A stretch of 64,000 nucleotides of DNA from Ohtaekwangia koreensis (GTDB taxonomy: Bacteria; Bacteroidota; Bacteroidia; Cytophagales; Cyclobacteriaceae), in assembly GCF_900167975.1 (NCBI RefSeq), contig NZ_FUZU01000004.1, positions 806,001 to 870,000 on the forward strand, given 5' to 3'. A program made the translations under genes and the position numbers. The notes under the pieces were generated by a model. That model saw only the letters and a list, made by a program, of their open reading frames with translations, ran no database searches and was not told the DNA's origin. Numbering within the stretch: position 1 is the first letter of the stretch; every line of letters starts with the position of its first letter. Below, piece after piece: positions 24,026-53,758 of this stretch.

Positions 24026-27000
24026 TTAAAATTCAATTTGAAGACTGACATTATATTGTCGAGTAGTCGGATAGCGTCCATAGTCAACACCAACAAATCC
24101 GCGCCCCTGATTACCAGAGAAGAATGTACCTACTTCGGGATCGTATCCGGAATATTTAGTGAACGTGTGCAGATTCTGAACATTGGCGGCAATGCGTAAA
24201 CCATTCAGATGAACTCTGGATACCAGTGCTCTCGGCAATCTGTAGGCGAGCTGCACGTTCTTGATCCGCATAAACGATCCATCCTCTACAAACCACTGTG
24301 ATGGTCTCGAGTTTCCATTGGCATCGGTAGACGAAATGCGTTGTACGTTATGGCCGGGATTCAGAATCTGCGGATTATCGGCAGCATTATTACTGCTTAC
24401 ACGTGCATAATCGAATACAGAACTGAGTAATCCATTTCCTGTATTGCTACCATTGGGATTGCCGTTTCTGAATTTCACAAAGTTGAATATATCATTACCA
24501 GAAACACCTTGCAGGAATATCATCAGTTCAAAGTTCTTATAGGTAAACGTGTTGGTAAATCCGAAATTAAATTTAGGCCATGGGTTTCCTATGATGACAC
24601 GATCATCCTGGTCTATAACACCATCGTTATTCTGATCTTTATACTTGATGTCGCCAACCCATGATCCGTTGTCGGCATTAATCTGGTTAGATGTTGTAGG
24701 AGTCTGACGCGCGTGTCCCTCAATATCAGATATACTCTGGAACAATCCTTCTGCCTCGTATCCATAGAACTGCCACGCAGGCTGACCAACTACTACACGG
24801 GAATCGAAGCCAGGCATGAACCACGCATCATTAACAAGTGGTGTGCCGCGGTACATCTCCGTTACTTTGTTATGATCCATCGAGAACACAAGTCCACTTT
24901 TCCAACCAAGAGCGCCTTCTGTATTAACCGTATTAAGTGTTATACCAAAGCCTCTGTTCTCAAGTGCTCCTATATTGGTATAAGGAAAAGATATATATCC
25001 CGGGGAATAATTCTGATTACCTCCGGTATAATATGGCAGGTTGTTTTGCGAAATGAGGTTGTCTGTATTCTTCAGATAGGCATCAGCAATCAACTCGATG
25101 CGATTGTTGAACATATGCAGATCAAAACCTACGTTAAAGCTTTTTGTGCTTTCCCACTTGAACTCCGGATTTGAAAAGTTACCCACCAGATATCCTGTTC
25201 CCCAGGCTGTAGGTATAGCAGACAATGCTCCATAGTACGTTGCTCCACCTGCTTGTTGATTTCCAGTAAGTCCGTACTCTACTCGTAATTTCAAGTCGTT
25301 AACAGAAGAGGATATACCAGACATGAACGATTCTTGCGATATACGCCATGCAGCAGAAACAGAAGGAAAATATCCCCAACGATTTTCCGGACCGAACGAT
25401 GGCGAACCATCTGCACGCAGTGTAGCCTGTACGATATATTTCTCATTGAATACATAGTTCAATCTTCCGAAGTATGATTCCATGGCCCATGAACCCTTCG
25501 AACTGCTATTCGTTGCTGTCTTTGCATCTCCTCCTGGTAGTTCATGAACACTATTTGAAACAAATCCACTACGCGTACCGGTAAGACCTTCAAATGTTCC
25601 CTCTTGTGCTTCATGGCTCACCATAGCTGTTATAGCATGCTTGCCGATATTGAGGTTATACCGCAGCAACATGTTCCATAACCATCCTATGTTGTTGCTG
25701 GCAGTGCGTGTAGACGTAGCTGTTTCATTTTCAAAGCCACCAAAAACATAGCTGGGTTTGTAGATATAATTATTAGTGAACTGCGCATTGCCATTTAGCT
25801 CTGTTCTAAACACAAGTCCTTTCACGATATTTATATCAGCATATATACCTCCTATCGCTTGTATTCTTCGAAACTTATTTTCGTTGATCAACGCGAGAGC
25901 TACCGGGTTTGTTTGGCGGAATTGTGTTTGACTAGGGCCGCCCCATGTACCATCTATATTCTTCAACGGTACTGCTGGCGACTGACTTATCGCTATATTG
26001 ATAAGATCATCATTGGTTACCGTGAGGTCCTCATTGGTAATGCTGGTGTTGAAGTTCGTACCTATCTTCAGCCATTTCCGGGTCTGGTTATCGAGGTTCA
26101 TGCGTATACCATACCGTTTGAAAGCAGAACCAACCGCTACACCATCCTGATTGAAATATTCACCGGAAAGATAGAAGGTAGTCTTATCTGTACCTCCGCT
26201 CATCGAGAGCTGGTGCTTCATCATGGCTGCGCGCTGAAATAACTCTTTCTGCCAGTTTGTTCCTTCACCCAATAGAGAAGGATCAGAGAATTCATCCGGC
26301 ACCGTGTAATTTGCCAATACAGATTTTATATCGTTCTGATATTCGGCATACTCACGAAGGTTCATAGTAGGAAGAAACTTCGGTATATCCTGTAAGGTAT
26401 AAAAAGTGTTATAGCTGAATTTTGTTTCTCCTGGTTTACCACGTTTCGTTGTGATCACAATTACACCATTGGATGCACGCGAGCCATATACCGAAGTGGC
26501 GGATGGTCCTTGCAGAATGTTGAGAGACTCTATATCATCGGGGTTAATACCCGACAAAGGGTTTGATGTTGTTCCGTTCGACCCCATGATCTGCACACCG
26601 TCAATAACGTACATGGGTTCGGTATTACCATTGATCGAATTTATACCACGTATCTTCACAGACAACGGTGCCCCTGGCTGTCCACTGTTAGCTGATACAT
26701 AAACATTCGCAGCTCTTCCTTGTATAGCTTGCTCCAATGTTGTATTAACAGTCTTTTGTATATCAGAAGCCGTGAGTGAAACTTGTGAACTCGATAAATC
26801 GGTCCTTTTCATTTCACCGTATCCGACTACTACAATTTCCTGAAGTGTCTCAACATCCTCCTCTAACGCTACACTAAGGTTTGTTTGATTTCCTACTGGT
26901 TGTTCCACGGATCTATACCCAATGAAAGACATTACCAATACATCTTCAGCTCCTGCTTCAATAGTGAAGTTACCATTGGTATCAGAAGTTGTTCCAATTG

Positions 27001-27160
27001 TAGTTCCCTTCACTAGAACGTTAACTCCAGGCATTCCCTCGCCTGCTATATCCGTGATCCTTCCTGTTACTATCTGCTTCTGCGCATACACGCCCGTTGC
27101 AAATGCTAACAGAAACAGTATCACGGAGACTCGTAATAGTTTCCTGTAAAGTTTTGTCAT
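24026..27160 (-). CDS. SusC-family TonB-dependent oligosaccharide transporter
   Basis: A 1044-residue outer-membrane protein: signal peptide (about 1-26), carboxypeptidase-regulatory-like domain (about 30-110), TonB-box region EIVVVGYGEMKR, plug (about 120-240, with YVIDGVQI and SVYGSRASNGVI) and a 22-strand barrel that ends RQYNVSLQIEF. This is the import channel of the locus, powered by TonB-ExbBD, and forms a pair with the SusD lid. There is no anti-sigma/STN extension at the N-terminus, so control by an ECF sigma pair is unlikely; a regulator must lie elsewhere. It is the first gene of the SusC-SusD-binding protein-GH51-like unit. Confidence 0.95.
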   Translation of the reverse strand: MTKLYRKLLRVSVILFLLAFATGVYAQKQIVTGRITDIAGEGMPGVNVLVKGTTIGTTSDTNGNFTIEAGAEDVLVMSFIGYRSVEQPVGNQTNLSVALEEDVETLQEIVVVGYGEMKRTDLSSSQVSLTASDIQKTVNTTLEQAIQGRAANVYVSANSGQPGAPLSVKIRGINSINGNTEPMYVIDGVQIMGSNGTTSNPLSGINPDDIESLNILQGPSATSVYGSRASNGVIVITTKRGKPGETKFSYNTFYTLQDIPKFLPTMNLREYAEYQNDIKSVLANYTVPDEFSDPSLLGEGTNWQKELFQRAAMMKHQLSMSGGTDKTTFYLSGEYFNQDGVAVGSAFKRYGIRMNLDNQTRKWLKIGTNFNTSITNEDLTVTNDDLINIAISQSPAVPLKNIDGTWGGPSQTQFRQTNPVALALINENKFRRIQAIGGIYADINIVKGLVFRTELNGNAQFTNNYIYKPSYVFGGFENETATSTRTASNNIGWLWNMLLRYNLNIGKHAITAMVSHEAQEGTFEGLTGTRSGFVSNSVHELPGGDAKTATNSSSKGSWAMESYFGRLNYVFNEKYIVQATLRADGSPSFGPENRWGYFPSVSAAWRISQESFMSGISSSVNDLKLRVEYGLTGNQQAGGATYYGALSAIPTAWGTGYLVGNFSNPEFKWESTKSFNVGFDLHMFNNRIELIADAYLKNTDNLISQNNLPYYTGGNQNYSPGYISFPYTNIGALENRGFGITLNTVNTEGALGWKSGLVFSMDHNKVTEMYRGTPLVNDAWFMPGFDSRVVVGQPAWQFYGYEAEGLFQSISDIEGHARQTPTTSNQINADNGSWVGDIKYKDQNNDGVIDQDDRVIIGNPWPKFNFGFTNTFTYKNFELMIFLQGVSGNDIFNFVKFRNGNPNGSNTGNGLLSSVFDYARVSSNNAADNPQILNPGHNVQRISSTDANGNSRPSQWFVEDGSFMRIKNVQLAYRLPRALVSRVHLNGLRIAANVQNLHTFTKYSGYDPEVGTFFSGNQGRGFVGVDYGRYPTTRQYNVSLQIEF

Positions 27161-28938: not shown

Positions 28939-29574
28939 CTATACTATAAAATTTTCTACTCTCAAATCGTAATCATCAGAAGGTGTACATATATAACAGA
29001 TATATTCCGGAATTTCTATTTCTCTGAAAAAACCGGTCATTGATGTGTTTTCAATTCTCCCAACATTATTATGTATAGCTACCTGGTTCAGCGGAATTTG
29101 CAATCCAAAGCCGTAAGCCTTCAATAAACTTTCCTTTTTTGTCCAGAAATCAAAAAATGTTTTTTCAGGGTCATTTGCCGATGTAATTATACCCCAATCA
29201 GTAGAAGAGAATAATTCGCTATACTCCCTCCATTCGAAACTTCTGATTTTTTCAACGTCTACTCCTATAGCGCGCTGGTTCGAAAATACCGCTACAACTT
29301 TATCCTCTGAATGAGAAACGTTAAAGTCTACAGCAGCAGAAAGTTGCAATTTACCATAAGGGCCGCGATGTAAAGTTTGTAGTATATCTTCACCAAGATT
29401 TGCTTCGATCAATAAGCGTTGTAACATTAAACGTCCGATAATACTTGGAAACTTTTTATCCAAAAAGTGGTAGTCATCATCACCCAAAAAATGTATATTT
29501 AATTTATTGCTGGCAGATTCCAAGTTCGTTGTTCTTGCTACCTCCGATACCGTCGAAATCAAAACTCTGACCAT
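28939..29574 (-). CDS. Sfp-type 4'-phosphopantetheinyl transferase
   Basis: A 211-residue cytoplasmic enzyme of the Sfp/AcpT superfamily. The three family motifs are present: FNVSHSEDK near 102, IGVDVEKI near 121 (metal-binding Asp and Glu) and FWTKKESLLKAYGFG near 165. It moves the phosphopantetheine arm of CoA to a carrier-protein serine. The only carrier seen in the window is the ACP of the large synthase 1.3 kb upstream, Ser1262, on the same strand, so it is the likely activating enzyme. The genes between them include one on the opposite strand, so it must have its own promoter. Confidence 0.88.
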   Translation of the reverse strand: MVRVLISTVSEVARTTNLESASNKLNIHFLGDDDYHFLDKKFPSIIGRLMLQRLLIEANLGEDILQTLHRGPYGKLQLSAAVDFNVSHSEDKVVAVFSNQRAIGVDVEKIRSFEWREYSELFSSTDWGIITSANDPEKTFFDFWTKKESLLKAYGFGLQIPLNQVAIHNNVGRIENTSMTGFFREIEIPEYICYICTPSDDYDLRVENFIV

Positions 29575-29839: not shown

Positions 29840-30262
29840 ATGAAAAAGGAATTTAAAAGACCTAACGGTAAAGAAATTTACGTCACTATTACTTTCGAAA
29901 AGGCAAACGATCTGGTCTATGTTGACTGGAATGGTTTCCTTACCGTAGATCAGGTAAAAGCAGGTTCTGAAGAATTGCTGAAGATCATTAAAGAAGTTAA
30001 ATGCAATAAAGTTCTGGTAGATAACCGTAAAGTTTCAGGTCCATGGCAGGCAGCGAACGAGTGGTATCAAACGGATTGGAATCCACGTGCTGCGAAAGAA
30101 GGACTCTCTGATATGGCAGTAATTATGTCAGACAACATTTTCACACAGCTCTCGTTGCAAGGTTTTACAAAAGCTACGAAAGGCGCGTATACCGTGGCCA
30201 TTTTTAACTCTGAGCCTGACGCAAGAAAGTGGTTGAAGGAACAGGTTGCTGTAGCAAAATAG
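29840..30262 (+). CDS. STAS-like (SpoIIAA/SEC14-type) protein
   Basis: A 140-residue soluble protein. The pattern of a beta-strand carrying YVDWNGFLTVDQVKAG, a helix (EELLKIIKEVKCNKVLVDNR), a strand around VSGPW, and TVAIFNSEPDARKWL near the end fits the STAS/SpoIIAA-like family that is frequent in Bacteroidetes, where its role is generally unknown. It is the only plus-strand gene between the transferase and lipocalin-like genes, preceded by 265 bp holding an imperfect palindrome (29782-29794) and followed by a strong terminator. Its closeness to the polyketide synthase may be chance. Confidence 0.6.
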   Translation: MKKEFKRPNGKEIYVTITFEKANDLVYVDWNGFLTVDQVKAGSEELLKIIKEVKCNKVLVDNRKVSGPWQAANEWYQTDWNPRAAKEGLSDMAVIMSDNIFTQLSLQGFTKATKGAYTVAIFNSEPDARKWLKEQVAVAK

Positions 30263-30282: not shown

Positions 30283-30331
30283 CATCTCTGAAATCCTGCC
30301 GGAAGGCAATGAATTTCAGAGATGTTTTTTT
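30283..30331 (+). terminator. Terminator after the STAS-like gene
   Basis: Perfect 12-bp arms (CATCTCTGAAAT with ATTTCAGAGATG) and seven T residues directly behind. It also sits at the end of the convergent lipocalin-like gene and may serve both. Confidence 0.85.
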
Positions 30332-30767
30332 ATGCTCTCTTCCAGGTAACGTTGAATAGAATTTTCTTTCCCTGTGCATGTATAGGAGGCGTGCTCAGCG
30401 TGAGATATTCTCCTTCAATCTTGCCATATCTGATTTCATCGTGGCCAACCCAATTGGGGAACAAGCTTCCTTCCACTTCATGAATTAACTCCCCCGGAGT
30501 CCGCTCGTAATATTTACCCCAATACGCAGCGTAACTAAGATATGCATCTTTAATTTCTTCGGCAGTGCCGCCTGTTAAGGATTCGGAAACGAAATTGCCA
30601 CGTCCGCTCTTCATTAATTGGGCATTCATATATCCACTGGCATCATAAGTTAAAATGCCAACAGGGTTCTCACCAAAAAAATCAACAGGCTCGTTGTCGC
30701 CATCCAGGTATTTCCACGATATAAGTTTCCAGGTTCCTATAATTTTTTCTTTTACGGATTCTTTCAT
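30330..30767 (-). CDS. Lipocalin-like domain protein next to the polyketide synthase
   Basis: A 145-residue soluble protein with the pattern of the lipocalin-like (Lipocalin_5) family: IIGTWKLISWKYLD at residues 9-22, NPVGILTYDASGYMNAQLM near 35, GELIHEVEGSLFPNW near 92 and LTLSTPP near 123. The fold is a small beta-barrel. Such domains are often found near polyketide or other secondary-metabolite genes, where binding or cyclisation of a hydrophobic product has been considered; that is context, not proof. It begins 106 bp after the polyketide synthase stop codon with an 18-bp inverted repeat between, so it could be the second gene of that unit. Confidence 0.7.
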   Translation of the reverse strand: MKESVKEKIIGTWKLISWKYLDGDNEPVDFFGENPVGILTYDASGYMNAQLMKSGRGNFVSESLTGGTAEEIKDAYLSYAAYWGKYYERTPGELIHEVEGSLFPNWVGHDEIRYGKIEGEYLTLSTPPIHAQGKKILFNVTWKRA

Positions 30768-30873: not shown

Positions 30874-33800
30874 TTATAAAAGAGTTTTAACAGTTTGAAG
30901 CGTCTTGCTATAGATCTCTTCTTGCACCAGTTGTGCTACAAACACTGCGTCTTGTTCGATATAGCGGTGTCCGCCTGAACGATTTATAAGTTTAAAAGAA
31001 GCAGCCGTTTCTTTTTCCCACTCTTCCATCTGATGTCTCTTCACGCGTTCATCTTCATTTCCGTGAATAGCAACAATCGGAATGTCTAATGGCTCTTCTC
31101 TAACAAACTCATAGTGATACAGGAACTGCAAGTCGGCACGCAGTATATTAATAAGAAGACTCTGGATCTCCACATCACCAATGTTATTGATATCAAGGTG
31201 TGGATACATCTGAACAAGTTCTTCGTTGGACAACGTATAGTCTACCTGTTTTTTATCGTACGCACCAAGTCCGGAAGTTGACGAAATGAAAAGCGTTTCC
31301 GGTAAGGCAATTTTCCTTCTGCGTAACTCGCGACTAATTTCATATGCGATCATACCGCCCATACTGTGACCTAGGAATATATAGGGCTTATCCAGTAAAC
31401 CTGTAATCAAAGGCATGATGTCGGACATAAAGGTTTTGAAATCCACATACGGAGTTTCTTCCATCCTTCTACCTCTTCCTGGCATTTCTACAAGTACGAG
31501 CTCGGCTGTTGATTCATCGAGAAGATTTTCCCAACCATTAAAGAGCGATGCACTTCCTCCGGCATCATGAAAACAGAATACACGGAAAGACGCTTTCGGA
31601 TTTGGTTTCGGAATAGTAAACCAGTTATTGGCGTTGTTCTTTGGTTGTATAGTAGTTTCAGTGTGTCCATGAATCTCTGCCGCCAGAACATCCTTCAGGT
31701 AAGAAGAATAATCTTGTATACTAGGATGCGACCAGAACATGCCTACCGGTAATTTAATCAATAACTCTTTCTCCAGGAGATTACGGAGTTGTACAGCCAT
31801 CAATGAATCAACTCCCATGCCTTTAAAGGTCATCGTATTTTTGATCCGATTCGGAGAGATCTTAATTACCTTCGATACATGATGTATGATCATCTGCTCA
31901 AGCACGTGCTGCTTTTCATTCTCAGCTTTTATCGTTGCATAGTTTTCAAGGAAAACAAAACCTTCTTTCTTCTGACCGTTACTATTTGCCTTGGCTGCTT
32001 TTCGTTCAGCAATACCTTGCAAACCCGTAATGCTCATCACCGGAGTGTTATCAAAATTAGAGATGGTTATATCTGCACTGAACTGCCATGTATTTGAATT
32101 CTTCTCATGCTTCACCAACGGATGGAATACAAGGAAGCCTCTTAACTCACGACTATAATTTACAGCAGCATGCAACATTATACTGTCGATTTTATCGAAC
32201 CGTACATCCAGGAAGTTACCCTCTTCAAGTATACTGGTAAGCTGTCCATATATAGGTTGGAAGAAGCTACTCATCAGGGCCGGATGTATTTTATACTTAC
32301 TTGCCGTAAGATGAACATTCGGGTCAGCCTTGATAGAGAACAATACATTCGGGAAAGGTCTGCTTCCAACTTTATCCAAACCGGTTAATTGCTGGAAGTG
32401 CTTGCCGTAATTAAATCCGATAGAGCGGAGTAAATTATAGTATGTGATACCTTCGGTATATGCAGGTGCGTGATATTCTATTTGATCGAATATCTCTGGA
32501 ACGTGTACGGTTTCCTTTGTCACGCGAATGTTTCCTTGTGCAAGCTGGATCCATCCTGATTCCCGGTCTTCTTTTTTAAAGATATATACCTGGCCCTTTT
32601 GATTTTCATTGATCGTCAATTTAACCTGTATATCTACACGTCCGTTGTCAGACAATGTTATATAGCGGGTAAAATCAAGATCTTCTATGCGTACGGGCAC
32701 ATCGTTGAATATTTCGGCAACCGCCTCCAATACGATTTCAATATAGCACGACATCGGAAGTTCCACCCGATCCTGAACGAGACGTTCGCGCAAGTATGGG
32801 AATTTGTTCAGGCTCACAGCCGATTCCCAATAATATGTATTCGCGATGTTAGCCAGATTAATTTTACTTCCTAGCAATGGATACTTTGCTGTTACATCCT
32901 TTATAGTCTCAAGTTCTTTTGAAAGATCTTCTATCTCAAACCTCTCGCGCTGGAAAGGGTACAACGGAAGTGTAGCATCCGGTGCCTTACTTGTTCCATA
33001 GTATATCTTCCAGTTAACCGGATATCCTTTGCTATAAAGATCACCCAAGTTCTTAAGCATGGCTTCGAGCTCAGGATTATCACGCTGTAGTGATGCAAGG
33101 GTAATGATCTTCTTACGATTATACTCTGCACACTCGTTTACTGCGTTTACCAGTACCGGATGCGGATTCGCTTCTATAAATATAGTATGCTCGTCCTTTA
33201 ATAGGGTTTCAAGTACGGATGCAAATTGTACAGTACCCCTCAGGTTATTTACCCAATAGTCTGCACCCATTTCCGAGCCTTGCATTACTTTATTATATAC
33301 CGTAGATACAAATGGTATCGTAATTTCCTGTGGTACTATATCTTTCAATTCCTGACGCAGTGGTTCTTTCAACGGGTCCATCTGTGGACTGTGTGAAGCT
33401 ACATCTACTTTTACAAGCCTGCAGAATAATCCTTTTGCTTCGAGTTGTACCAATACTTCATCGATGGAGGCTTTATCACCTGCCAATACCGTTGATTTAT
33501 GACTGTTGTTAACCGCTACAGAAAGTTTACCTCCATATGTAGCGGCCACTTTCTCCGCATCCTGACGGCTTAGTTCTGTTACGGCCATTGCTCCGCCAGT
33601 ACCGCTTACCGTTTTCATCAGGCGACTACGTTCGCAAATAATTCTTGCTGCATCTTCAAGTTTCAGTGCTCCTGAAATATAGGCAGCGGCTACTTCACCC
33701 ATGCTATGTCCGACAACGGCTTGTGGTTGTATACCCCACGACATCCATAGCTTGGCAAGCGCAATTTGCATCGCGCATATAGCAGGTTGAATAACGTTGA

Positions 33801-35589
33801 TCTCGGTGAGGCGACTAGTCTCTGGTGTAGCATTGATCTGATCAATCAACGACCAGTCTGTAAACGGACGAAAAGCTGTATCACATGCAAATATAGTATC
33901 TCTGAAAACTTTCTCTTTTACCAGGAGTTCGCGTCCCATGCCTAACCATTGTGCACCTTGTCCCGGGAATACAAAAACAATTTTTGCTTTGTCAGATATA
34001 GGTTTACTTGGTATTACCTCTGATTCGTCTTCAATGAAATTTTTCAGATTGGATAACATCTGCTCAGGTGTGCTTCCTGTAAACAGCATGCGGTGGTCAA
34101 ACTCAGGCTTACGCAGCGCTGTGGCGATGCATATAGCTTTAAAAGATTCGTCATCGCCTTGCTCAATTTCTTTTGCATATGCCCGTGCATAGTCTTTTAA
34201 TGCCTGCGATGATTTCGCGGAAAGTGGCAAGCAATATATTTCAGGAGTAGCTATAGTCTCTGTGGATTGTTTCTTAACCGGACGATATTCTTCCAGTGCT
34301 ACGTGTGCATTCGTTCCTCCCCAGCCAAATGAATTTACTCCGGCTTTAAATGTTTCTCCATTGTTTACCGGCCACGCAGTTAAATCTTTTTGAACTTCGA
34401 GTTGTAATTCCTCGAATGGAATATTCGGATTTGGATTATTAAAGTTCAGGTTCGGAGGTAACGTTTTGTGTTGCATGGCGAGCACAACTTTAACAAGCCC
34501 TGCTATACCAGCCGTTGCTTCTGTATGGCCGATGTTTGTTTTTACGGAACCTATACGAAGTTTATTTCCGGTTCTGCCTTTTCCAAAGAACTGTCCTATC
34601 GCAATCGCTTCGTTCGGGTCGCCCAGCTTTGTTCCGGTGCCGTGAGCCTCTATATAATGTACGTCATGCGGATCTATACCAGAGTTGGTATATACTTTCT
34701 CGAAGAGTGATATCTGACCTTCCGTGCTGGTGGCAGGAAGTGTATCGTTGAATCCATTGTTATTAACCGCTGTGCCGCGGATTACTGCATATATCTTATC
34801 ACCATCGCGTTCAGCATCCGACAATCTCTTTAATAACAGAACGCCACCACCTTCACCACGAACAAAACCATCCGCGTCTTTATCAAATGTACTACACTTG
34901 CCTTTCAGGGATAAACCTCCAAACTGTGTAAGCTCTATATATTTGTCAGGATCAAGAATATGGTTTATACCGCCTACCACAGACATTTCCGATTCGCTGC
35001 TCAGCAGATTCTGACAAGCCATATGCAGCGCCACCAAAGAGGCAGAGCAACCAGTGTCAATCACCAGGCTTGGTCCGGTAAATCCCAATGCAAACGAAAC
35101 GCGGTTAGCCACTACGTTGGATGACATGCCGACAGCGGAGTGCAATGTAGCCTTGGCATTTTTTGCTTTCCGATAGTGTTCGAAGTCTGTCCAGATGTTA
35201 CCGACAAAAACGCTTACGTTTTTTCCTTTTACTTCATTGAATGGTAACGTTGAATTCTCAATCGCTTCCCATGCAAGTTCCAACATCAATTTTTGAGATG
35301 GACTCATCTCGCTGGCCTCCGCGGGAGATATATTAAAGAATAATGGATCGAAGTCGTGAATGTTGGATAACAGCGATGCGTGACGTTGATGTGTTTTGCG
35401 ATCTGCGTGTGGATCCGGATCGTAATATTTGTCTGCATCCCAACGCTCCTTGGGTATTTCTGCTATAGTATCTTTTCCGTTTTTAAGGAGTTCCCAGAAT
35501 TCCTGGAGAGAATTTGAATTCGGAAAGCGGCAAGACATTCCAATAATAGCGATTGATTCTTGGTCGGGAGAGTTTTTCGGAGATTTCAT
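30874..35589 (-). CDS. Type I polyketide synthase, KS-AT-DH*-ACP-TE
   Basis: A 1571-residue single-chain synthase. Ketosynthase (about 10-440): Cys181 in DTGCSASL, EAHGTGT and NIGHTEA supply the catalytic triad. Acyltransferase (about 540-850): Ser629 in GHSMGE; VASH suggests malonyl rather than methylmalonyl, tentatively. A dehydratase-like double-hotdog fold (about 905-1190) has Arg936 where the catalytic His belongs and Ser1107 for the Asp in HPALMS, so it is probably inactive or a shaping domain. ACP: Ser1262 in GVDSL. Thioesterase (about 1330-1560): Ser1409 in GHSMGG, His in GGHRYIE. No ketoreductase, enoylreductase or methyltransferase is seen. It would act iteratively or on a foreign starter to make an unreduced product. 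Neighbouring Sfp-type transferase and lipocalin-like genes fit. Confidence 0.9.
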   Translation of the reverse strand: MKSPKNSPDQESIAIIGMSCRFPNSNSLQEFWELLKNGKDTIAEIPKERWDADKYYDPDPHADRKTHQRHASLLSNIHDFDPLFFNISPAEASEMSPSQKLMLELAWEAIENSTLPFNEVKGKNVSVFVGNIWTDFEHYRKAKNAKATLHSAVGMSSNVVANRVSFALGFTGPSLVIDTGCSASLVALHMACQNLLSSESEMSVVGGINHILDPDKYIELTQFGGLSLKGKCSTFDKDADGFVRGEGGGVLLLKRLSDAERDGDKIYAVIRGTAVNNNGFNDTLPATSTEGQISLFEKVYTNSGIDPHDVHYIEAHGTGTKLGDPNEAIAIGQFFGKGRTGNKLRIGSVKTNIGHTEATAGIAGLVKVVLAMQHKTLPPNLNFNNPNPNIPFEELQLEVQKDLTAWPVNNGETFKAGVNSFGWGGTNAHVALEEYRPVKKQSTETIATPEIYCLPLSAKSSQALKDYARAYAKEIEQGDDESFKAICIATALRKPEFDHRMLFTGSTPEQMLSNLKNFIEDESEVIPSKPISDKAKIVFVFPGQGAQWLGMGRELLVKEKVFRDTIFACDTAFRPFTDWSLIDQINATPETSRLTEINVIQPAICAMQIALAKLWMSWGIQPQAVVGHSMGEVAAAYISGALKLEDAARIICERSRLMKTVSGTGGAMAVTELSRQDAEKVAATYGGKLSVAVNNSHKSTVLAGDKASIDEVLVQLEAKGLFCRLVKVDVASHSPQMDPLKEPLRQELKDIVPQEITIPFVSTVYNKVMQGSEMGADYWVNNLRGTVQFASVLETLLKDEHTIFIEANPHPVLVNAVNECAEYNRKKIITLASLQRDNPELEAMLKNLGDLYSKGYPVNWKIYYGTSKAPDATLPLYPFQRERFEIEDLSKELETIKDVTAKYPLLGSKINLANIANTYYWESAVSLNKFPYLRERLVQDRVELPMSCYIEIVLEAVAEIFNDVPVRIEDLDFTRYITLSDNGRVDIQVKLTINENQKGQVYIFKKEDRESGWIQLAQGNIRVTKETVHVPEIFDQIEYHAPAYTEGITYYNLLRSIGFNYGKHFQQLTGLDKVGSRPFPNVLFSIKADPNVHLTASKYKIHPALMSSFFQPIYGQLTSILEEGNFLDVRFDKIDSIMLHAAVNYSRELRGFLVFHPLVKHEKNSNTWQFSADITISNFDNTPVMSITGLQGIAERKAAKANSNGQKKEGFVFLENYATIKAENEKQHVLEQMIIHHVSKVIKISPNRIKNTMTFKGMGVDSLMAVQLRNLLEKELLIKLPVGMFWSHPSIQDYSSYLKDVLAAEIHGHTETTIQPKNNANNWFTIPKPNPKASFRVFCFHDAGGSASLFNGWENLLDESTAELVLVEMPGRGRRMEETPYVDFKTFMSDIMPLITGLLDKPYIFLGHSMGGMIAYEISRELRRRKIALPETLFISSTSGLGAYDKKQVDYTLSNEELVQMYPHLDINNIGDVEIQSLLINILRADLQFLYHYEFVREEPLDIPIVAIHGNEDERVKRHQMEEWEKETAASFKLINRSGGHRYIEQDAVFVAQLVQEEIYSKTLQTVKTLL

Positions 35590-35921: not shown

Positions 35922-38900
35922 TCATTTCTTGATTCGTCTCTCGGCTGCGTATGCAGAAGGCAACATTTTATACTCTTCCTTAAAGTATTTAGTGAAGTAC
36001 TTAGGGTTATTGAAACCAACTTTATAGGCTATTTCTGAAACCGTAAGCTGACTTTTCTCCAGCATTTGTGCGGCCTGCTGCAGGCGGATCACGCGGATAA
36101 ATTCCAGCGGACTCTTTCCCGTTAGCGCCAACAGTTTCTTATAAAGGTGTACACGGCTCATACCGAGCTCACGACTCAGGTCTTCTACAGAAAAATTAGT
36201 ATCCGATATATTATCCTCCACGCACTTGATTGCACGCTCAATAAGTTTCTCGTCCAGTGAAGTTATGTTCACATGACTCGCCTTTATCTCAATCTGTTTT
36301 CTGAAGTCTTTCTGGAATGATTCGCGTTTCTGAATCAGATTTCGAATACGCGATTGGAGAATTTCAAAATTGAAGGGCTTGGTAATATAGTCATCCGCGC
36401 CAATTTCGAAGCCCTCCATCTTTTGTTCCTCGGTAGTACGCGCGGTAAGCAGAATTACCGGGATGTGCGACACACGTGTATCATTCCTTACTTTACGACA
36501 AAGTTCAATGCCGTTCATCTCCGGCATCATCACATCACTCACAATCAGGTCAGGCAATGCAGAGAGTGCCTGGTTCCATCCTTCTTTTCCGTTTCGGGCT
36601 TCTATAATTCTATAGTGTAGGCGAAGGTTATCCTTCAGGTAAAAACGGAAATCTTCGTTATCCTCTACTAATAAGAGTGTAGGAGCTTCCGATTGCTGGC
36701 TTTCGTCCCATACAGGAGCAACGTCTTCATTCACAACTGATGCTGTTTCATGTATAGTTACACTCTTCACTGGAATGGATACCGTGAAACAGCTTCCTTT
36801 GCCTACTTCACTTTCAACGGTGATATAGCCCTCGTGTACGCGCACAAACTCTTTGGTGATCGATAATCCTATACCACTGCCCTGGTTAACCATGCTGGCG
36901 GGCAGATCGCTTTGAAAGAAGCGTTCAAATATTTTTTCCTGTTTATCCGGTGATATACCGATGCCGGTGTCAATCACTTTTATTTCCAGCCACTTTCCTT
37001 CGGCTTGCTGAAATTCATTTACGAGTACAGAAACGCTGCCATGTTCGGGTGTAAATTTGAAAGCGTTCGACAGAAGATTGAAAAGAATCTTCTCAAGTTT
37101 ATCCTGATCAAATATAGTCTCAAGTGACTCCAGAGACGATTTGAAATCAAGCTTGATATCCTTTTTCTCTGACATATCAGAAAACGAAAAAGTTGTTTCG
37201 CTGATAAATTTGATAATGTCGCCCTCGAATGGATTGAATTTTATTTCCTGTACTTCAAGCTTTCTGAAATCGAGCAACTGGTTTACAAGATTTAACAATC
37301 GCCTGGCATTGCGATGAATGAGTTGAAACTGTGTGCGCTGATCATCACTGGCCGCCTTCATCAGTTTTTCAACTGGTGTAAGGATTAATGTGAGCGGCGT
37401 TCGAAACTCGTGACTCACGTTTGTAAAAAACTTGAGCTTCATCATGTCAAGTTCGTGCATCCGTTGTGCTTCCTGGCGCTCTTGTTCAATTATAAACTTG
37501 AGCCGCTCACGCTGTTGTATAAGCCGTCTGGTAATCAGCAACGCTGCCATCAGCAGGCATATATATACTACAAATGCAGCTCTCGTTTTCCAAAACGGCG
37601 GAAGGATTGTAATCTTCATAGACGTCCCGGCTTCGTTCCACACGTCATCGTTGTTGGACGCCTTCACGCGAAGTATATATTCACCAGGGTCAAGATTCGT
37701 AAAGGTTACGCGCCTGGAGTTTCCATCCGTTGCAAGCCACTCTTTGTTAAATCCCTCCAGCTTGTATTTATAGCGACTCTTCTCCGGAAGAAAAAAGTTC
37801 AAGGATGCAAATTCTATTGAGAAAACATTATCGCTATAGGAAAGTCGTATTTCCTTTGTGTGCGTGATGGCTTTTTCAAGGATTACATTTCCCTTTATCT
37901 CTTCTCCTATCTTTACTTCTTTGTTGAAAATCTGCAAGCCGGTAAAATGCACCACCGGTTTTTTATCGTTCATCCGGATATCGCCCGGTTTGAATATATT
38001 AAAACCGTTTGGACCACCGAAGATAAGTTTGCCTTCACGTGTTCTATAGGCTGCAGCCTCGTTGAATAATTTTCCCTGTAAACCATCTGACTCATCGTAA
38101 TTTCTAAAGCGAAATGAAGCAATGGTGCCGTCTGCATTTCGTCTAATAGTTAAATGGGACAATCCTTGTGGTGTGCCCATCCAAAGATTACCGCTACCAT
38201 CCTGTAGCAATGTAAGTACGGTGTTATGAGGCAAGCCATCTTCCTGACGAAGTACCCTAAATGTTTTCTTCTGCTTGTCAAAGAGATTTAGTCCTTCTTT
38301 TGTACCAACCCACAATGTACCATGCCCATCATCCAACATTGTAAAAACATTGTTATGCGCGAGGCTGTTTGGATTATTTACATCATTTAAATATTGCGTG
38401 AAGGTTCCCGATTTACGATCATAGAAATCAAGACCATACCCGGTGCCCATCCATAAATTCTTATCGGCATCTTCAACGATAGCCGTTACATAAGTAGAGT
38501 GAACAGAATTGACAGCGCCTGATGGATAGTGTATAAAAGAATTCGTGCTCCGGTCAAAGCGATCAGCCCCTGCGCGTAATGTTCCAATCCAAAGTTGTCG
38601 TTCAGAGTCCTCAAAAATATCCCAGATGTTGTCCTCACTTATACTCTTTGGATCTGTTGAATGCCGATAGTGTATAAACTTTTTTCCGTCAAAGCTATTT
38701 AACCCTGCGTAGTATGTTCCGATCCAAAGCTTTTTATAACTATCAAAAAGGGTACTTACAATTACATTGCCGCTTATGCTATTCGGGTTTCGGGGGTCAT
38801 GCGTATATTGTCGGAAGCGATCATTTTTCGGATCGTATTGTATCAAGCCCCCCCCATTCGTTCCTATCCATATATTACCATCATCGTCTTCGGCGAAAGA

Positions 38901-40028
38901 ATTGATATCATTAAACGGCAAACTGTTTTTGTTACCTGCTTCGTTTCGGAATAACGGGAACCTGATTACATTTTCATGATAATAATTGACACCTCTTTTA
39001 TAGGTACCAATCCAGATAAACCCATCATAATCTTTATATATAGTCTGTATGCTATTCTGGCTTAAGCTTTTATCATCATCTTTATTATGTAGTATATATT
39101 GAACAGAGAAATTCTTTTTGTTGATAATGTTAACGCCTCCATGATCGGTTGCAACCCAGATCATCCCTTCATTATCCTGCACCACCCCACGGATAATATC
39201 TGTGTTCAGTTGCAGCTTTGCAGAGCCCTTATGAAAATGATGCAGGGCCGGCTTAGAAACATCAAAGTAATATATACCTTTATTTGAATTCGTAAAGTAT
39301 ATCCACAAGTCACCATCGGCATCTGCGATCAGGTTATAATCCAAAAGCTCATTCTTGTATTGTCTGTGAATAGTGTAGTTCCGGTATACTACAGCAAGTG
39401 TTTCTCCATCGAGCTTTTCAAGTATACCATTTTGGTGCAAGATCCAGAAATCTCCAGCCTTATCATGTGCCATGGAAGCCACCCTGCTGCTGTGTATCGC
39501 GGTAGTATCCTTTTCGCTTTGATTGATGCGAATCGTTTTTTTCTGCGCAGGTATATATTTAAACAGGCCGGACGTAACGTGCATGAACCAGTAATCTCCG
39601 TTACGGTCCTTCACAATATCGCTGATCAGTCCGTCAGGAATAGTATAGTGACGAAGAAGGGGATTTACGTTACGTGTAAATTTTTCTGTTTCAGGATTGT
39701 ATACGCTTATACCGGCATATGTGGTAACCCAAATTTTCCCGGAAGGGTCTTCAAAAATTTTAAAGATGTCATTGTCTCCAATGGAGGAAGTATCGCGAGG
39801 ATCGTTTCGGAACACTTTTGCTGTGCTGCCGTCAAATCTATTCAGGCCCGAGATAGTACCAATCCAGATAAATCCCTGGCTGTCCTTCAGAAAGGCTTTC
39901 ACCTGACTGTTGGACAAGCCGTGGTTCAGATCAACGTGTGAGAATCGATATTGACCGTTTTGTGCGTACACACTGTTAAAGGCCAATAATAAAACAGCAA
40001 AACAATAAATAAACAATCTGATTGACAT
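35922..40028 (-). CDS. Hybrid two-component sensor-regulator (HTCS)
   Basis: A 1368-residue inner-membrane protein that joins a whole two-component pathway. Order: signal peptide (about 1-22), two beta-propellers of regulator repeats (about 30-670, many WIGT units), Y_Y_Y domain (about 745-810), one membrane helix (about 816-835), histidine kinase with phospho-accepting His873 in SHEFRTPLT, ATPase with NAFKFTPE, DTGIGISPD and GSGIGLSI, receiver domain with Asp1165 in SDVMMPEMNG, and an AraC-type DNA-binding domain (about 1265-1368). HTCS proteins sense oligosaccharides in the periplasm and switch on polysaccharide loci. Since it borders the ExuT-like transporter and uronate genes, a pectin fragment is the likely signal. 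Confidence 0.93.
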   Translation of the reverse strand: MSIRLFIYCFAVLLLAFNSVYAQNGQYRFSHVDLNHGLSNSQVKAFLKDSQGFIWIGTISGLNRFDGSTAKVFRNDPRDTSSIGDNDIFKIFEDPSGKIWVTTYAGISVYNPETEKFTRNVNPLLRHYTIPDGLISDIVKDRNGDYWFMHVTSGLFKYIPAQKKTIRINQSEKDTTAIHSSRVASMAHDKAGDFWILHQNGILEKLDGETLAVVYRNYTIHRQYKNELLDYNLIADADGDLWIYFTNSNKGIYYFDVSKPALHHFHKGSAKLQLNTDIIRGVVQDNEGMIWVATDHGGVNIINKKNFSVQYILHNKDDDKSLSQNSIQTIYKDYDGFIWIGTYKRGVNYYHENVIRFPLFRNEAGNKNSLPFNDINSFAEDDDGNIWIGTNGGGLIQYDPKNDRFRQYTHDPRNPNSISGNVIVSTLFDSYKKLWIGTYYAGLNSFDGKKFIHYRHSTDPKSISEDNIWDIFEDSERQLWIGTLRAGADRFDRSTNSFIHYPSGAVNSVHSTYVTAIVEDADKNLWMGTGYGLDFYDRKSGTFTQYLNDVNNPNSLAHNNVFTMLDDGHGTLWVGTKEGLNLFDKQKKTFRVLRQEDGLPHNTVLTLLQDGSGNLWMGTPQGLSHLTIRRNADGTIASFRFRNYDESDGLQGKLFNEAAAYRTREGKLIFGGPNGFNIFKPGDIRMNDKKPVVHFTGLQIFNKEVKIGEEIKGNVILEKAITHTKEIRLSYSDNVFSIEFASLNFFLPEKSRYKYKLEGFNKEWLATDGNSRRVTFTNLDPGEYILRVKASNNDDVWNEAGTSMKITILPPFWKTRAAFVVYICLLMAALLITRRLIQQRERLKFIIEQERQEAQRMHELDMMKLKFFTNVSHEFRTPLTLILTPVEKLMKAASDDQRTQFQLIHRNARRLLNLVNQLLDFRKLEVQEIKFNPFEGDIIKFISETTFSFSDMSEKKDIKLDFKSSLESLETIFDQDKLEKILFNLLSNAFKFTPEHGSVSVLVNEFQQAEGKWLEIKVIDTGIGISPDKQEKIFERFFQSDLPASMVNQGSGIGLSITKEFVRVHEGYITVESEVGKGSCFTVSIPVKSVTIHETASVVNEDVAPVWDESQQSEAPTLLLVEDNEDFRFYLKDNLRLHYRIIEARNGKEGWNQALSALPDLIVSDVMMPEMNGIELCRKVRNDTRVSHIPVILLTARTTEEQKMEGFEIGADDYITKPFNFEILQSRIRNLIQKRESFQKDFRKQIEIKASHVNITSLDEKLIERAIKCVEDNISDTNFSVEDLSRELGMSRVHLYKKLLALTGKSPLEFIRVIRLQQAAQMLEKSQLTVSEIAYKVGFNNPKYFTKYFKEEYKMLPSAYAAERRIKK

Positions 40029-40117
40029 GGAGCTTCACCTCTGAAGATGAAGTGAAATATAAATAATTAAATTTTTATACACTCCATGAAAACAAAATGT
40101 TCGTACTACAATTGTTT

Positions 40118-41503
40118 TTATAAATCTGTAATGGGTTTATACTTCGGCACCAATGCTTTCATCACGCTCCATGCGATAAGATAAGCAACGGCACAAATTG
40201 TAAACATGATTGTATAGCCGGTTTCAATATGACCGAGGGCCTTGTAATGATCGAACAATGCACCGCCCAATTTTGTAAGGAATACAGCGCCAATACCTCC
40301 GGCCATACCACCTATACCAACAACAGATCCAACGGCTTTTTTAGGAAACATATCTGATACGGTTGTAAATATATTTGCGCTCCACGCCTGGTGTGCAGAG
40401 GCACCTATACCGATCAGCAGAACCGGAAGCCAGAAGCTTAGAGTTCCCAGCGGTTGCGCTGCCAGTACAACCAATGGAATCAACGCAATCACAAGCATGG
40501 CTCGCATGCGTCCATCATATACTAAATATCCTTTGCGGATAAAGTACATGGGAAACCAGCCGCCCATAACGCTGCCCACCATCGCCAAAGTATACAATAA
40601 AGCAAGTGGAAGCACGATGGCCTGATCAACTATACCATACTGTGCTTTGAGATACGCTGGCAACCAAAAAAGAAAAAACCACCACACACCATCCGTCATA
40701 AATTTGCCAAAGGCAAACGCCCAGGTTTGTTTATAGCCTAACAACTTTACCCACGATACTTTCTGTTTTATAATTTCTTCATCTACAACGGGTGCTTCAC
40801 CATCTTCATCGCTGTTGATATACTTGAGCTCAGCAGCTGAAAGTTTTTTCTGTTTCTCCGGTTTCTCATAAAAAAATAGCCAGAAGAATAACCACAAAAA
40901 TCCGATAAATCCAATAACGATGAAGGCAGCTTCCCATCCCCAGTTTCTGTAAATCCAGGGCACCGTGAGTGGTGCCAGAATAGCTCCTATATTTGCACCT
41001 GAATTGAAAATACCGGTAGCAAAAGAACGCTCGCGCTTCGGAAAATACTCAGCAGTTGCCTTAATCGCGGCCGGAAAATTACCGGCTTCACCTATAGCAA
41101 GTAAAGCTCTTGAAAACATAAACCCTGCGACAGAAACGGAAATCGCTCCTATACCCAGCCATCCAACCAAAGCAGAAATACTTTCGCCCAGGGGTATAGC
41201 AACAGCATGCACTATAGCTGCGGCAGACCAAATGATAATTGCCCATCCGTATCCCCACTTGGTATCAAGCTTATCAATAAAGCGCCCTGCAAAAAGCATG
41301 GAGAGTGCATAGGTAAATTGAAATACAGCGGTGATGTTTGCATAGTCGCTGTTGGTCCATCCGAAAATTTCTTCGAGCCGTGGCTGCAGAAGACTTAACA
41401 CCTGGCGGTCGAGGTAGTTAATGGTGGTTGCAAAGAACACCAAAGCACAGATCGTCCATCGATATTTACCAATCGCCTGGCTTACGTTTTGAGTTTTTTC
41501 CAC
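40118..41503 (-). CDS. MFS hexuronate transporter, ExuT-like
   Basis: A 461-residue permease with about 12 hydrophobic spans. The first reads WTICALVFFATTINYLDRQ, the signature of the anion:cation symporter branch (ExuT/UhpT relatives). The central cytoplasmic loop is charged (KKLSAAELKYINSDEDGE). It would carry galacturonate, glucuronate or unsaturated derivatives across the inner membrane with protons. It starts 54 bp after KDPG aldolase in a row of uronate genes, which supports that substrate class. The exact sugar is not visible from the sequence. Confidence 0.85.
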   Translation of the reverse strand: MEKTQNVSQAIGKYRWTICALVFFATTINYLDRQVLSLLQPRLEEIFGWTNSDYANITAVFQFTYALSMLFAGRFIDKLDTKWGYGWAIIIWSAAAIVHAVAIPLGESISALVGWLGIGAISVSVAGFMFSRALLAIGEAGNFPAAIKATAEYFPKRERSFATGIFNSGANIGAILAPLTVPWIYRNWGWEAAFIVIGFIGFLWLFFWLFFYEKPEKQKKLSAAELKYINSDEDGEAPVVDEEIIKQKVSWVKLLGYKQTWAFAFGKFMTDGVWWFFLFWLPAYLKAQYGIVDQAIVLPLALLYTLAMVGSVMGGWFPMYFIRKGYLVYDGRMRAMLVIALIPLVVLAAQPLGTLSFWLPVLLIGIGASAHQAWSANIFTTVSDMFPKKAVGSVVGIGGMAGGIGAVFLTKLGGALFDHYKALGHIETGYTIMFTICAVAYLIAWSVMKALVPKYKPITDL

Positions 41504-41557
41504 AGTATAAGGGTTTGGGTTGTTGAATCGTTTTAAGGTTGATGAATTACATTGTTA

Positions 41558-42229
41558 TCAAAGCGTTTCGCCTCTTAATCTCTTTACTATACCTAATATC
41601 TCCTGTACATTGTTTTCGAGTTGCTTCCAATTCTTTTCTGCAAGAATTTCTTTTGTAAAAAGTTGTGAGCCCATTCCAACACACATGGCTCCTGCTTTAA
41701 ACCAGGCCGACAGATTTTTTTCATTGGGTTCTACTCCTCCGGTGATCATCAATTGCAAATCGGGAACAACCGGCATAATGGAAGAAATAAACCCTGGGCC
41801 GAGTACAGAGCCTGGAAATACTTTTATAACCTCTGCGCCATTTTCTTTTGCGGTCACAATTTCCGTTAGCGTAGCACATCCCGGCATCCATAGTTTACCA
41901 TGCGCGCGGCAAACTTCTGCCATCTCCAATTTCACAATGGGAGATATAATGAAGTCAGCACCAGCATCTATAAATTTCTTTGTAGTGGCTCCGTCCATCA
42001 CCGTACCGATGCCAATCATAAGTTCCGGGTAGTTACTCCGTTGTTTCAGCAGGTGAACAAATACATCGTACGAATTTTTCTTACGGTTGGTAAATTCAAA
42101 TACGCGTACACCACCTTTATAGGCAGCCTCTACTACACGCTGCGCTTCTTCAGCATTATCATGCGTAAACAAAGGCACCACCCCTATACGCTTCATCGTA
42201 TCTACTATCTGCTGGTTTGTAAATTTCAT
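41558..42229 (-). CDS. eda: KDPG/KHG aldolase
   Basis: A 223-residue class I aldolase of the Eda family. Glu45 (VFEFTNR) and the Schiff-base Lys136 (VIKVFPG) are at the positions expected from E. coli Eda; IGIGTV, PGCATLTE and MITGGV complete the pattern. It splits 2-keto-3-deoxy-6-phosphogluconate into pyruvate and glyceraldehyde-3-phosphate, the last step of uronate breakdown. KDG kinase lies 81 bp upstream and the ExuT-like transporter follows. Compared with its paralogue at 45423-46133, this copy is the one with intact active-site residues. Confidence 0.92.
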   Translation of the reverse strand: MKFTNQQIVDTMKRIGVVPLFTHDNAEEAQRVVEAAYKGGVRVFEFTNRKKNSYDVFVHLLKQRSNYPELMIGIGTVMDGATTKKFIDAGADFIISPIVKLEMAEVCRAHGKLWMPGCATLTEIVTAKENGAEVIKVFPGSVLGPGFISSIMPVVPDLQLMITGGVEPNEKNLSAWFKAGAMCVGMGSQLFTKEILAEKNWKQLENNVQEILGIVKRLRGETL

Positions 42230-42310
42230 CTCAAAATATTTTTATAATTCTATACTATATTTAGTCCAGGCTTCAATCCAGTTTTATACTTTGGTATTGA
42301 ACCGCTTAAA

Positions 42311-43309
42311 TTACCTCAACAACTTTCCAACATTCTCGCCTTTTACCAACTGCTCAACCTCATCTACCGTTACAGTATTTACATCGCCTTCTATCGAATG
42401 TTTCAGTACGCTCGCTGCGGTTGCAAACTCTAAAGTATCAGTATCGGTTTTAGAAGTTAACACGCCATAGATTAAGCCCGCCATAAAAGCATCACCTCCC
42501 CCTACACGATCTACTATATGCGTCATCTCGTATTGCTGCGATTGGAGTAACTCTTTGCCATTCCACAGGAGACCGGTAAGTCTGTTATGAGATGAGCTTA
42601 CCGAATCGCGTAGTGTAGTTGAAATTTTCGTTGTATTGGGATACGCTTGCTTGAAGGCTTTGCAGGCGGCTTCAAATGTATCGCCAGATATACCAACACA
42701 GTTCTCCATATCTGCTATACCGGCAATGATCACGTTCGTTGACTCGATCAGCGATGGCATTATATCGCGTGCAGTCTTTCCATACTGCCACAGATTTCTG
42801 CGATAGTTTATATCACCGGAAATCGTGAGGTTCAATTTCTTTGCAGCCTGTATAGCTTCTTTACAAACATCGGCAGCACCTTGCGAGATAGCCGGAGTAA
42901 TACCGGTCCAGTGAAACCACGAAGCATCTTTCAATACTTCAGACCAATCAATCATTCCAGGTTTGATGTGGGAAAACGCTGAGTTGAAACGATCATATAC
43001 AATACGCGAAGGGCGTTGCATAGATCCATTCTCCAGAAAATATATACCCATACGCTCGTCACCATATATAATATAGCGCGTATCTACACCATATCGTTGC
43101 AAGGTTTGTGTTGCCGTTTTACCAAGATCATTTTCGGGGAAACGTGTAACATGGGCTGTATCAATTCCAAAATGACTTAGCGATGCTGCTACGTTAGCTT
43201 CCGAGCCGGCATATAAAGCTTTAAAACTTTCGGCTTGTGTAAACCGCGCGAATCCCGGTGTTGAAAGCCGAAGCATAATTTCTCCGAATGTGATTACTCT
43301 TTTATTCAT
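42311..43309 (-). CDS. kdgK: 2-keto-3-deoxygluconate kinase (PfkB family)
   Basis: A 332-residue ribokinase-family sugar kinase. The opening ITFGEIMLRLSTPGF and the GSEANVAASLSHFG segment are typical of KDG kinases; the ATP site and catalytic Asp lie in DRVGGGDAFMAGLIYG near residue 265. The enzyme phosphorylates KDG to KDPG for the aldolase coded next. The start is 234 bp from the stop codon of the SDR gene, and that gap carries the short inverted repeats at 43330-43405 and 43503-43543, so it may have separate control or a structured message. Substrate is inferred from motif resemblance and context. Confidence 0.87.
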   Translation of the reverse strand: MNKRVITFGEIMLRLSTPGFARFTQAESFKALYAGSEANVAASLSHFGIDTAHVTRFPENDLGKTATQTLQRYGVDTRYIIYGDERMGIYFLENGSMQRPSRIVYDRFNSAFSHIKPGMIDWSEVLKDASWFHWTGITPAISQGAADVCKEAIQAAKKLNLTISGDINYRRNLWQYGKTARDIMPSLIESTNVIIAGIADMENCVGISGDTFEAACKAFKQAYPNTTKISTTLRDSVSSSHNRLTGLLWNGKELLQSQQYEMTHIVDRVGGGDAFMAGLIYGVLTSKTDTDTLEFATAASVLKHSIEGDVNTVTVDEVEQLVKGENVGKLLR

Positions 43310-43329
43310 TCCTCTTTCGTGTTGTTGTT

Positions 43330-43405
43330 TTTATAGTCCGGAAGTCCGAAAAGTCGGAAAGTCCGGAAGTATGTTTATAGTCCGGAAGTCCGAAAGTCCG
43401 GAAGT
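43330..43405. repeat. Tandem GTCCGGAA-type intergenic repeats
   Basis: Two direct copies of a block beginning TTTATAGTCCGGAAGTCCGA (43330 and 43375), each built from 7-8-nt units (AGTCCGGA, AGTCCGAA, AGTCGGAA). The inverted counterpart lies at 43503-43543. Confidence 0.8.
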
Positions 43406-43502
43406 AATGCACTTAATATTTATGCGTTAGTCTTATAAAAAGGATATGCTATATCTCAAAATATACCCTGCCACACTCAAGTCGTCACCACCATCCTCTT
43501 CC

Positions 43503-43543
43503 CGACTTCCGGACTTTCCGTCTTTCGGACTTCCCCACTTCCC
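43503..43543. repeat. Inverted copy of the GTCCGGAA-type repeats
   Basis: Contains GACTTCCGGACTTTCCG and CTTTCGGACTTCC, the reverse complement of the units at 43330-43405. It ends exactly at the SDR stop codon. The two blocks could pair in the message between the SDR and kinase genes. Confidence 0.8.
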
Positions 43544-44365: not shown

Positions 44366-44376
44366 GGATGTGATGT

Positions 44377-47868: not shown

Positions 47869-47892
47869 ATTAAACACGCTATTTATGCTATT

Positions 47893-47925
47893 GAAAGGGG
47901 ATTATAAATTAATCCCCTTTCTTAT
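47893..47925 (+). terminator. Terminator after altronate dehydratase
   Basis: Twelve-base perfect arms GAAAGGGGATTA / TAATCCCCTTTC with a 5-nt loop, followed by TTATTTG. Confidence 0.85.
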
Positions 47926-47957
47926 TTGTACTTATTCTAAATAGAATCCTACATTTG
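47925..47957 (+). promoter_or_regulatory. Promoter of the TonB-dependent receptor
   Basis: TTTG (47925-47928), 21 bp, then an exact TACATTTG (47950-47957); the start codon is 27 bp further. No Fur-like palindrome was recognised. Confidence 0.6.
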
Positions 47958-47984
47958 AGCTGTTTATAATAAGTCTAAATTACT

Positions 47985-50360: not shown

Positions 50361-50386
50361 CGTATTGCGATATCAGATTATTCACG

Positions 50387-50418
50387 AGCCACCTGGAACA
50401 CAGGTGGCTTCTGTGTTT
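50387..50418 (+). terminator. Hairpin after the TonB-dependent receptor
   Basis: AGCCACCTG / CAGGTGGCT arms with a 5-nt loop and a TTCTGTGTTTT tail. It probably lowers read-through into the PepSY gene. Confidence 0.65.
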
Positions 50419-50458
50419 TAAATCGCAAAGTATATATACATCCTTGTAACAATATTTT

Positions 50459-51724: not shown

Positions 51725-51762
51725 AGCGAATGGCCGTCATCTGATAACGATTAACAATTGCT

Positions 51763-53757: not shown

Positions 53758-53758
53758 C

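Follow-up and report, generated by a model that had tools for sequence, protein, structure and literature searches.

Probable origin by ketoreductase loss of a putatively non-reducing type I polyketide synthase in Ohtaekwangia koreensis

Fungal non-reducing type I polyketide synthases (PKSs) such as PksA and CTB1 have the domain order SAT-KS-AT-PT-ACP-TE/CLC, where KS is the ketosynthase, AT the acyltransferase, PT the product template, ACP the acyl carrier protein and TE the thioesterase, whereas mycobacterial Pks13 is ordered ACP-KS-AT-ACP-TE. In bacteria, the actinobacterial orsellinic acid synthases AviM and CalO5 (KS-AT-PT-ACP) are reported to combine a non-reducing order with a dehydratase (DH)-like fold between AT and ACP, and the AviM-like enzymes found in that report (56 of the top 100 matches) were all actinobacterial (PMC9135731). 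Here we describe a PKS gene of Ohtaekwangia koreensis (Bacteroidota) lying in a 64,000-nucleotide stretch of contig NZ_FUZU01000004.1 (positions 806,001 to 870,000; hereafter the window), with the order KS-AT-DH*-ACP-TE, in which DH* denotes a dehydratase fold lacking its catalytic pair. We favour the view that its product is a single-chain, probably iterative, non-reducing synthase that arose by loss of a ketoreductase (KR) and releases a short unreduced compound, probably a pyrone or β-keto acid.

The open reading frame (ORF) starts with ATG and occupies the minus strand. Its Pfam matches, all above the curated cut-offs, comprise KS, AT, PP-binding and thioesterase families at the ranges given below, with DH* divided between PKS_DH_N (aa 904-1005) and PS-DH (aa 1049-1197). 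No KR, enoylreductase or methyltransferase was found among the 13 Pfam families matched, bearing out the initial annotation of one five-domain chain devoid of these three activities. The top NCBIfam models for the PKS (PKS_plus_SDR, Pks13 and Pks2) scored far under their cut-offs, as did the rest of the best 25 of 30 models. Across the six contigs (7.2 Mb) of the host genome, PKS_DH_N was matched once, by this gene.

30874..35589, minus strand: putatively non-reducing type I polyketide synthase, KS-AT-DH*-ACP-TE, 1,571 aa (ORF and Pfam)
34441..35559, minus strand: ketosynthase (aa 11-383; Pfam), catalytic C181, H316 and H355 retained
33040..33978, minus strand: acyltransferase (aa 538-850; Pfam), motifs GHSMGE and VASHS, erythromycin-synthase (DEBS) ATs as top solved matches
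31999..32880, minus strand: DH* (aa 904-1197; Pfam), dehydratase fold whose catalytic pair is missing, predicted by modelling to be a double hotdog
32782..32784, minus strand: codon CGT of R936, replacing the catalytic His of HxxxGxxxxP (alignment)
32269..32271, minus strand: codon AGT of S1107, replacing the catalytic Asp of HPALLDA (alignment)
31906..31992, minus strand: DH*-ACP linker (aa 1200-1228), the site of ~500 additional residues (KR region) in relatives with a KR
31696..31881, minus strand: acyl carrier protein (aa 1237-1298; Pfam), DSLMA serine retained
30946..31584, minus strand: type I thioesterase (aa 1336-1548; Pfam), GHSMGG serine and GGH histidine retained

A survey of same-order homologues, as the initial annotation had proposed, gave five relatives beside the window at 60-99% identity. 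Within the genus the order occurs only in G005 (99%), G004 (83%) and G001 (82%), and together with the window, G158 and G327 (the last two being rows L081 and L082) these make six frames of 1,561-1,588 aa in three genera; the contig carrying the 99%-identical locus bears the title 'uncultured Bacteroides sp. isolate Bacteroidetes_sp_nbed49b3'. Since these relatives keep the order at such identities, with low dN/dS against the nearest, the arrangement is not a chance one. Longer homologues of 2,033-2,087 aa with a Pfam KR, 46-50% identical over KS-AT-DH, were found in G002 and G003 (same genus) and in G019 and G025 (family). Searches with the full protein matched somewhere in 59/59 genomes, many through housekeeping KSs, while a DH*-region query matched 45 of 390 family genomes at 1e-10 and, at 1e-15, 8 of 291 in an order sample and 2 of 395 in a phylum sample, the three samples overlapping. 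Judged by frame length, the order and phylum samples held no KR-less synthase beyond that of the window itself, the DH* query being blind to KR-less synthases without a DH such as that of locus L109. Among the papers listed by literature searches, none described the KR-less synthases or the KR-bearing clade to which they are related below.

The relatives' DNA stretches came from three fetches (20, 20 and 12), and eight of the 45 matching family genomes lie outside the set (G059, G080, G129, G140, G152, G173, G176 and G209), of which G176 may be a clade member. Excluded from the counts were L038 (G009), whose homologue is split into several frames and ends with its contig inside the TE; L109 (G453), whose gene orders differ; L029 and L047-L050, which are partial or of other order; and L022, which shares a contig with L031.

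To place the synthase, 54 sequences (the window and 53 relatives) were aligned and a quick IQ-TREE phylogeny was computed from 882 KS-AT columns, with SH-aLRT as its sole support measure. The six KR-less synthases form one clade (SH-aLRT 100) nested in a clade of 34 rows (SH-aLRT 100), the remaining 28 of which are KR-bearing. A KR profile seeded with the KRs of G002, G003, G019 and G025 matched 48/48 other rows, seeds included, and 0/6 KR-less rows; within the larger clade the split is 28/28 against 0/6, and when the tree is rooted on three KR-bearing rows, a single change accounts for the character. Because the six form one clade inside KR-bearing rows, the tree shows a single KR loss in their lineage. 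The DH tree also recovers the six as a clade (support 100). In the TE tree five of the six group together and L082 stands apart with weak support (two changes); possibly its TE was replaced. KS placement had been named beforehand as a test, and KS and AT fall inside a Bacteroidota clade with 28 KR-bearing synthases; the KS and DH phylogeny proposed at the same time bears on descent within bacteria, as the trees hold no fungal row.

These relatives offer a natural before-and-after series, namely 28 KR-bearing synthases, two KR-less ones with the DH His and four KR-less ones without it, in which the conversion of a reducing into a non-reducing synthase can be studied. Domain deletion in fungal enzymes is reported not to have reproduced that step (PMC9866795). 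A separate observation concerns G453 (L109:4580-16604), in which a 2,366-aa PKS gene, with a DH, a KR, a single KS match and two matches each to AT and PP-binding, is followed by a KS-AT-ACP-TE gene and then by Lipocalin_5; this locus is a relative of assembly-line type whose last module is non-reducing.

A KR acting in trans as a fixed partner had been named as a finding that would speak against non-reduction, and none was found in the ORFs listed for L081 and L082 or by a KR-family search of the genome. The corresponding alternative, that FabG/FabZ or another short-chain dehydrogenase/reductase (SDR) reduces the product in trans, draws on 41 KR-family matches among genome SDRs. The best of these reaches 77 bits, however, against 191-195, so that a PKS-type KR was not found in the genome; reading the ORFs listed for the L081 and L082 loci revealed nothing KR- or SDR-like; the one SDR recognised by reading in the window, at 43544-44365, is ~8 kb away among sugar-acid genes; and DH* lacks its catalytic pair. 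We consider reduction in trans quite improbable. With no KR in cis, no PKS-type KR elsewhere and a DH without its pair, the chains are probably left as unreduced β-keto chains.

The catalytic Asp of the DH is gone from all six KR-less synthases (Ser in five, Asn in G327) and the catalytic His from four, being Arg in the window, G005, G004 and G001 and still His in G158 and G327. The window's PKS, with R936 and S1107, therefore lacks the His-Asp pair of an active dehydratase, which is intact in 26 of the 28 KR-bearing clade members and in 20/20 other rows. In L113 and L114, Lys and Glu replace the His and Asp while the KR is retained, although it matches less well, at 110 and 119 bits versus 178-354 in the other 26; these two represent a separate inactivation. 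Deposited CurJ and CurK DH mutants in either His or Asp are titled inactive, and by motif DH* should neither dehydrate nor act as an AviM-type cyclase. The predicted DH* model matches a bacterial dehydratase fold, and a DH* profile scored 229 bits with the CurF DH and 23.6 bits with the PksA PT; profile and model lean to DH because only five of their 47 rows are KR-less (L033 omitted). The dehydratase-like fold of the initial annotation is thus upheld, but not the shaping of an unreduced polyketone implied by its fungal parallel, R936 and S1107 standing where a product template needs its catalytic residues. For the same reason we regard it as improbable that DH* is a new product-template-like cyclase forming an aromatic ring: in the window and its three congeners an Arg takes the place of the His that AviM is reported to need, the fungal PksA PT is reported inactive once the Asp alone is lost (PMC9135731), and the PksA profile match is the weak one given above, from a profile made mostly of DHs.

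Between the window and G005 dN/dS is low in each PKS domain; for DH* usable values came from the window-G005 and window-G004 pairs, L033 being excluded for a run of N in its DH* codons. The codon comparisons show purifying selection on DH*, which is what a scaffold role would give, and DH* may have been retained as such. The DH* stem of the KR-less clade is long (1.67, against 0.25 for KS-AT), a feature that we rejected as unique given the L097 group (0.99 against 0.11). That the gene is a decaying synthase without a product, as the loss of one domain and two catalytic residues might suggest, is hardly credible: KS C181/H316/H355, the AT Ser and His, the ACP Ser and the TE Ser and His are retained in 6/6 KR-less rows, the comparison with G005 gives a low dN/dS in every domain, and the cassette is conserved.

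The KS motif is DTGCSASL, as initially annotated, but it is not tied to non-reduction: DTGCS is present in 34/34 clade members and 0/20 other rows, which have DTACS, and was rejected as a mark of the non-reducing form because KR-bearing members have it too. SAS directly after DTGC is shared by 6/6 KR-less and 1/28 KR-bearing clade rows. KS changes specific to the six KR-less rows occupy 7 of 195 columns, including S183A, L356T and A359T near catalytic residues, and were likewise rejected as exceptional, with 14 control groups showing 0 to 18 columns. In the AT, whose closest solved relatives are those of DEBS, VASH stands in place of their YASH; YASH is reported to mark methylmalonyl and HAFH malonyl specificity (PMC6164871), and a literature search on the AT motif found no paper. 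The combination of GHSM with VASH is mixed, and a methylmalonyl extender is possible.

Under the favoured reading, a Bacteroidota KS-AT-DH-KR-ACP-TE synthase would have lost its KR and with it the β-hydroxyacyl substrate of the DH, whose function would then have been lost, the Asp decaying first and the His later in the window's genus, with the double-hotdog fold persisting as a scaffold. A phosphopantetheinyl transferase (PPTase) would arm the ACP, AT and KS would perform a single condensation or a few, after which an unreduced β-keto chain would be freed by the TE, most probably as a 4-hydroxy-α-pyrone through O-C ring closure, or as a β-keto acid; a lipocalin-fold partner might bind, ring-close or shield the hydrophobic product. 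We infer the pyrone itself, along with iteration, the length of the chain, the extender unit and the roles given to scaffold and lipocalin. An α-pyrone or β-keto acid seems more likely than an aromatic ring by analogy with AviM, whose H949A/D1104A mutant, changed at the two residues that correspond to those lost here, is reported to behave as H949A does, with a spontaneous O-C closure leading to tetraacetic acid lactone (PMC9135731). The venemycin VemH TE is reported to release a triketide pyrone (PMC10204065). Of the unreduced aromatic or pyrone product initially proposed, lack of reduction is retained and the pyrone favoured over the aromatic ring.

Several points weigh against this account. 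Tree support comes from SH-aLRT on a quick tree; L113 and L114 have lost the DH pair yet keep a KR, so that KR loss is not a prerequisite for DH loss; the AT motif is mixed; the TE could simply hydrolyse; FabG/FabZ might act in trans; the AviM analogy compares reported residue positions outside a common alignment or tree; and deletion of KR and DH from fungal orthologues is reported to have given, by itself, no pyrone (PMC9866795). The synthase might instead be a single-round condensing enzyme resembling Pks13, joining one acyl starter to one (methyl)malonyl unit, with the TE freeing a β-keto acid, from which decarboxylation may yield a ketone. Pks13 does occur among the model and solved-structure matches, the chain has one KS, one ACP and a terminal TE, and in the deep relative L109 the second PKS gene of a pair encodes KS-AT-ACP-TE and nothing more. 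The N-terminal ACP of Pks13 is lacking, however (no search for a loading partner was made), and a second ORF above 1,100 aa occurs in only 3/33 clade loci (in two it is the neighbouring regulator; L096 has two). Most synthases of the clade thus have no such companion, in better agreement with iteration, and we hold a single round to be unlikely though credible.

The genes beside the PKS are as follows.

30330..30767, minus strand: Lipocalin_5 protein, 145 aa (Pfam), homologue beside the PKS in 33/33 fetched clade loci
29840..30262, plus strand: SpoIIAA-like protein (PF11964, 23.2 bits, under the cut-off of 25), homologue in 29/33 fetched clade loci
28939..29574, minus strand: Sfp-type PPTase (Pfam), homologue in 17/33 fetched clade loci, some clade stretches ending early

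Counting the window, Lipocalin_5 adjoins the PKS in 34/34 clade loci and in 0/20 others (blastp with the window's protein at E 1e-3, which divergent lipocalins would escape; 19/20 outgroup rows have at least 4.6 kb downstream, L045 only 50 bp), a linkage that holds across the clade. Outside the 54 rows, one more locus, L109, has it beside its KS-AT-ACP-TE gene. By eye the protein has no signal peptide. It may handle the product, and makes a small, tractable candidate for an unexplained step of bacterial polyketide assembly. In a further reading, which we think unlikely, a second bacterial non-reducing origin proceeded in stages, the KR and the DH Asp going first, and ring closure passed to the constant lipocalin-fold partner once the His was lost in the window's genus; G158 and G327, with Asp lost and His kept, could then be His-only product-template cyclases, by analogy with the AviM D1104A result. 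If true, the lipocalin would be a new type of polyketide cyclase or chaperone serving reducing and non-reducing synthases of the clade alike. The dedicated Sfp-type transferase of the initial annotation is indeed nearby, separated from the PKS by the Lipocalin_5 and opposite-strand SpoIIAA-like genes, but 'dedicated' is borne out only in part, given the 17/33 fetched clade loci with a homologue and two further ACPS-superfamily genes in the genome.

The cassette adjoins a pectin/hexuronate region (46222-60405 and 35922-46133) with two pectinesterases, a GH43, a pectate-lyase-like β-helix protein and an altronate dehydratase by Pfam. Reading of the ORFs adds aldolases, a KDG-kinase-like gene and, immediately upstream of the PKS, a hybrid two-component regulator; altronate-dehydratase-like and KDG-kinase-like genes were also read near L081, in another genus. 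The SusC-like gene adjoining the PPTase (24026-27160) is 94% identical to that of G001 (L031:16322-19540) and 44% to that of G005, and as the G005 PKS is 99% identical, SusC/D was probably swapped locally between close relatives. Between glycoside hydrolase and SusC/D-like genes, 10130-15238 encodes a protein of 1,702 aa that matches DUF6443 and an RHS repeat.

Compared with known systems, the synthase is closest to the 28 KS-AT-DH-KR-ACP-TE enzymes of its own clade (same family and order), sharing descent, KS, AT, ACP and TE, the DTGCS motif, Lipocalin_5 and mostly SpoIIAA-like neighbours, but differing from them in KR and, for 26/28, in the intact DH pair. Pks13 resembles it as a single non-reducing chain with a TE, but has an ACP at the N terminus, where the window's PKS has none (its one PP-binding match is at aa 1237-1298), and no counterpart of DH*. 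The parallel with fungal non-reducing PKSs that was initially drawn stands as to the shared KS-AT-(hotdog)-ACP-TE order but probably not as to kinship. The fungal enzymes have an N-terminal SAT, whereas here the KS starts at aa 11, and a PT His-Asp dyad, here R936 and S1107; by bit score the KS is nearer to bacterial modular PikA1 (434) than to fungal CTB1 (253), and DH* to bacterial DHs than to fungal PTs. Fungal kinship was therefore set aside on KS bits, DH profile and DH fold, the fungal comparison being by score or report, and because the synthase appears to descend from a KR-bearing enzyme the likeness looks convergent. Fungal hispidin synthases are reported to be similar in lacking the KR and DH activities of their orthologues and in giving an unreduced product, but their DH domain is wholly absent and the product, a styrylpyrone, is known (PMC9866795). 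AviM is reported to retain and require the catalytic His, which is Arg in the window and three congeners and His in L081 and L082, and to be an actinobacterial enzyme without a TE, unlike the present TE-bearing synthase of KR-bearing Bacteroidota ancestry (PMC9135731). Given the KR-bearing sister group and the actinobacterial origin of all AviM-like enzymes reported there, the KR-less lineage, in a tree that holds no AviM-type row, may be a second bacterial origin of non-reducing type I PKSs that can be pointed to.
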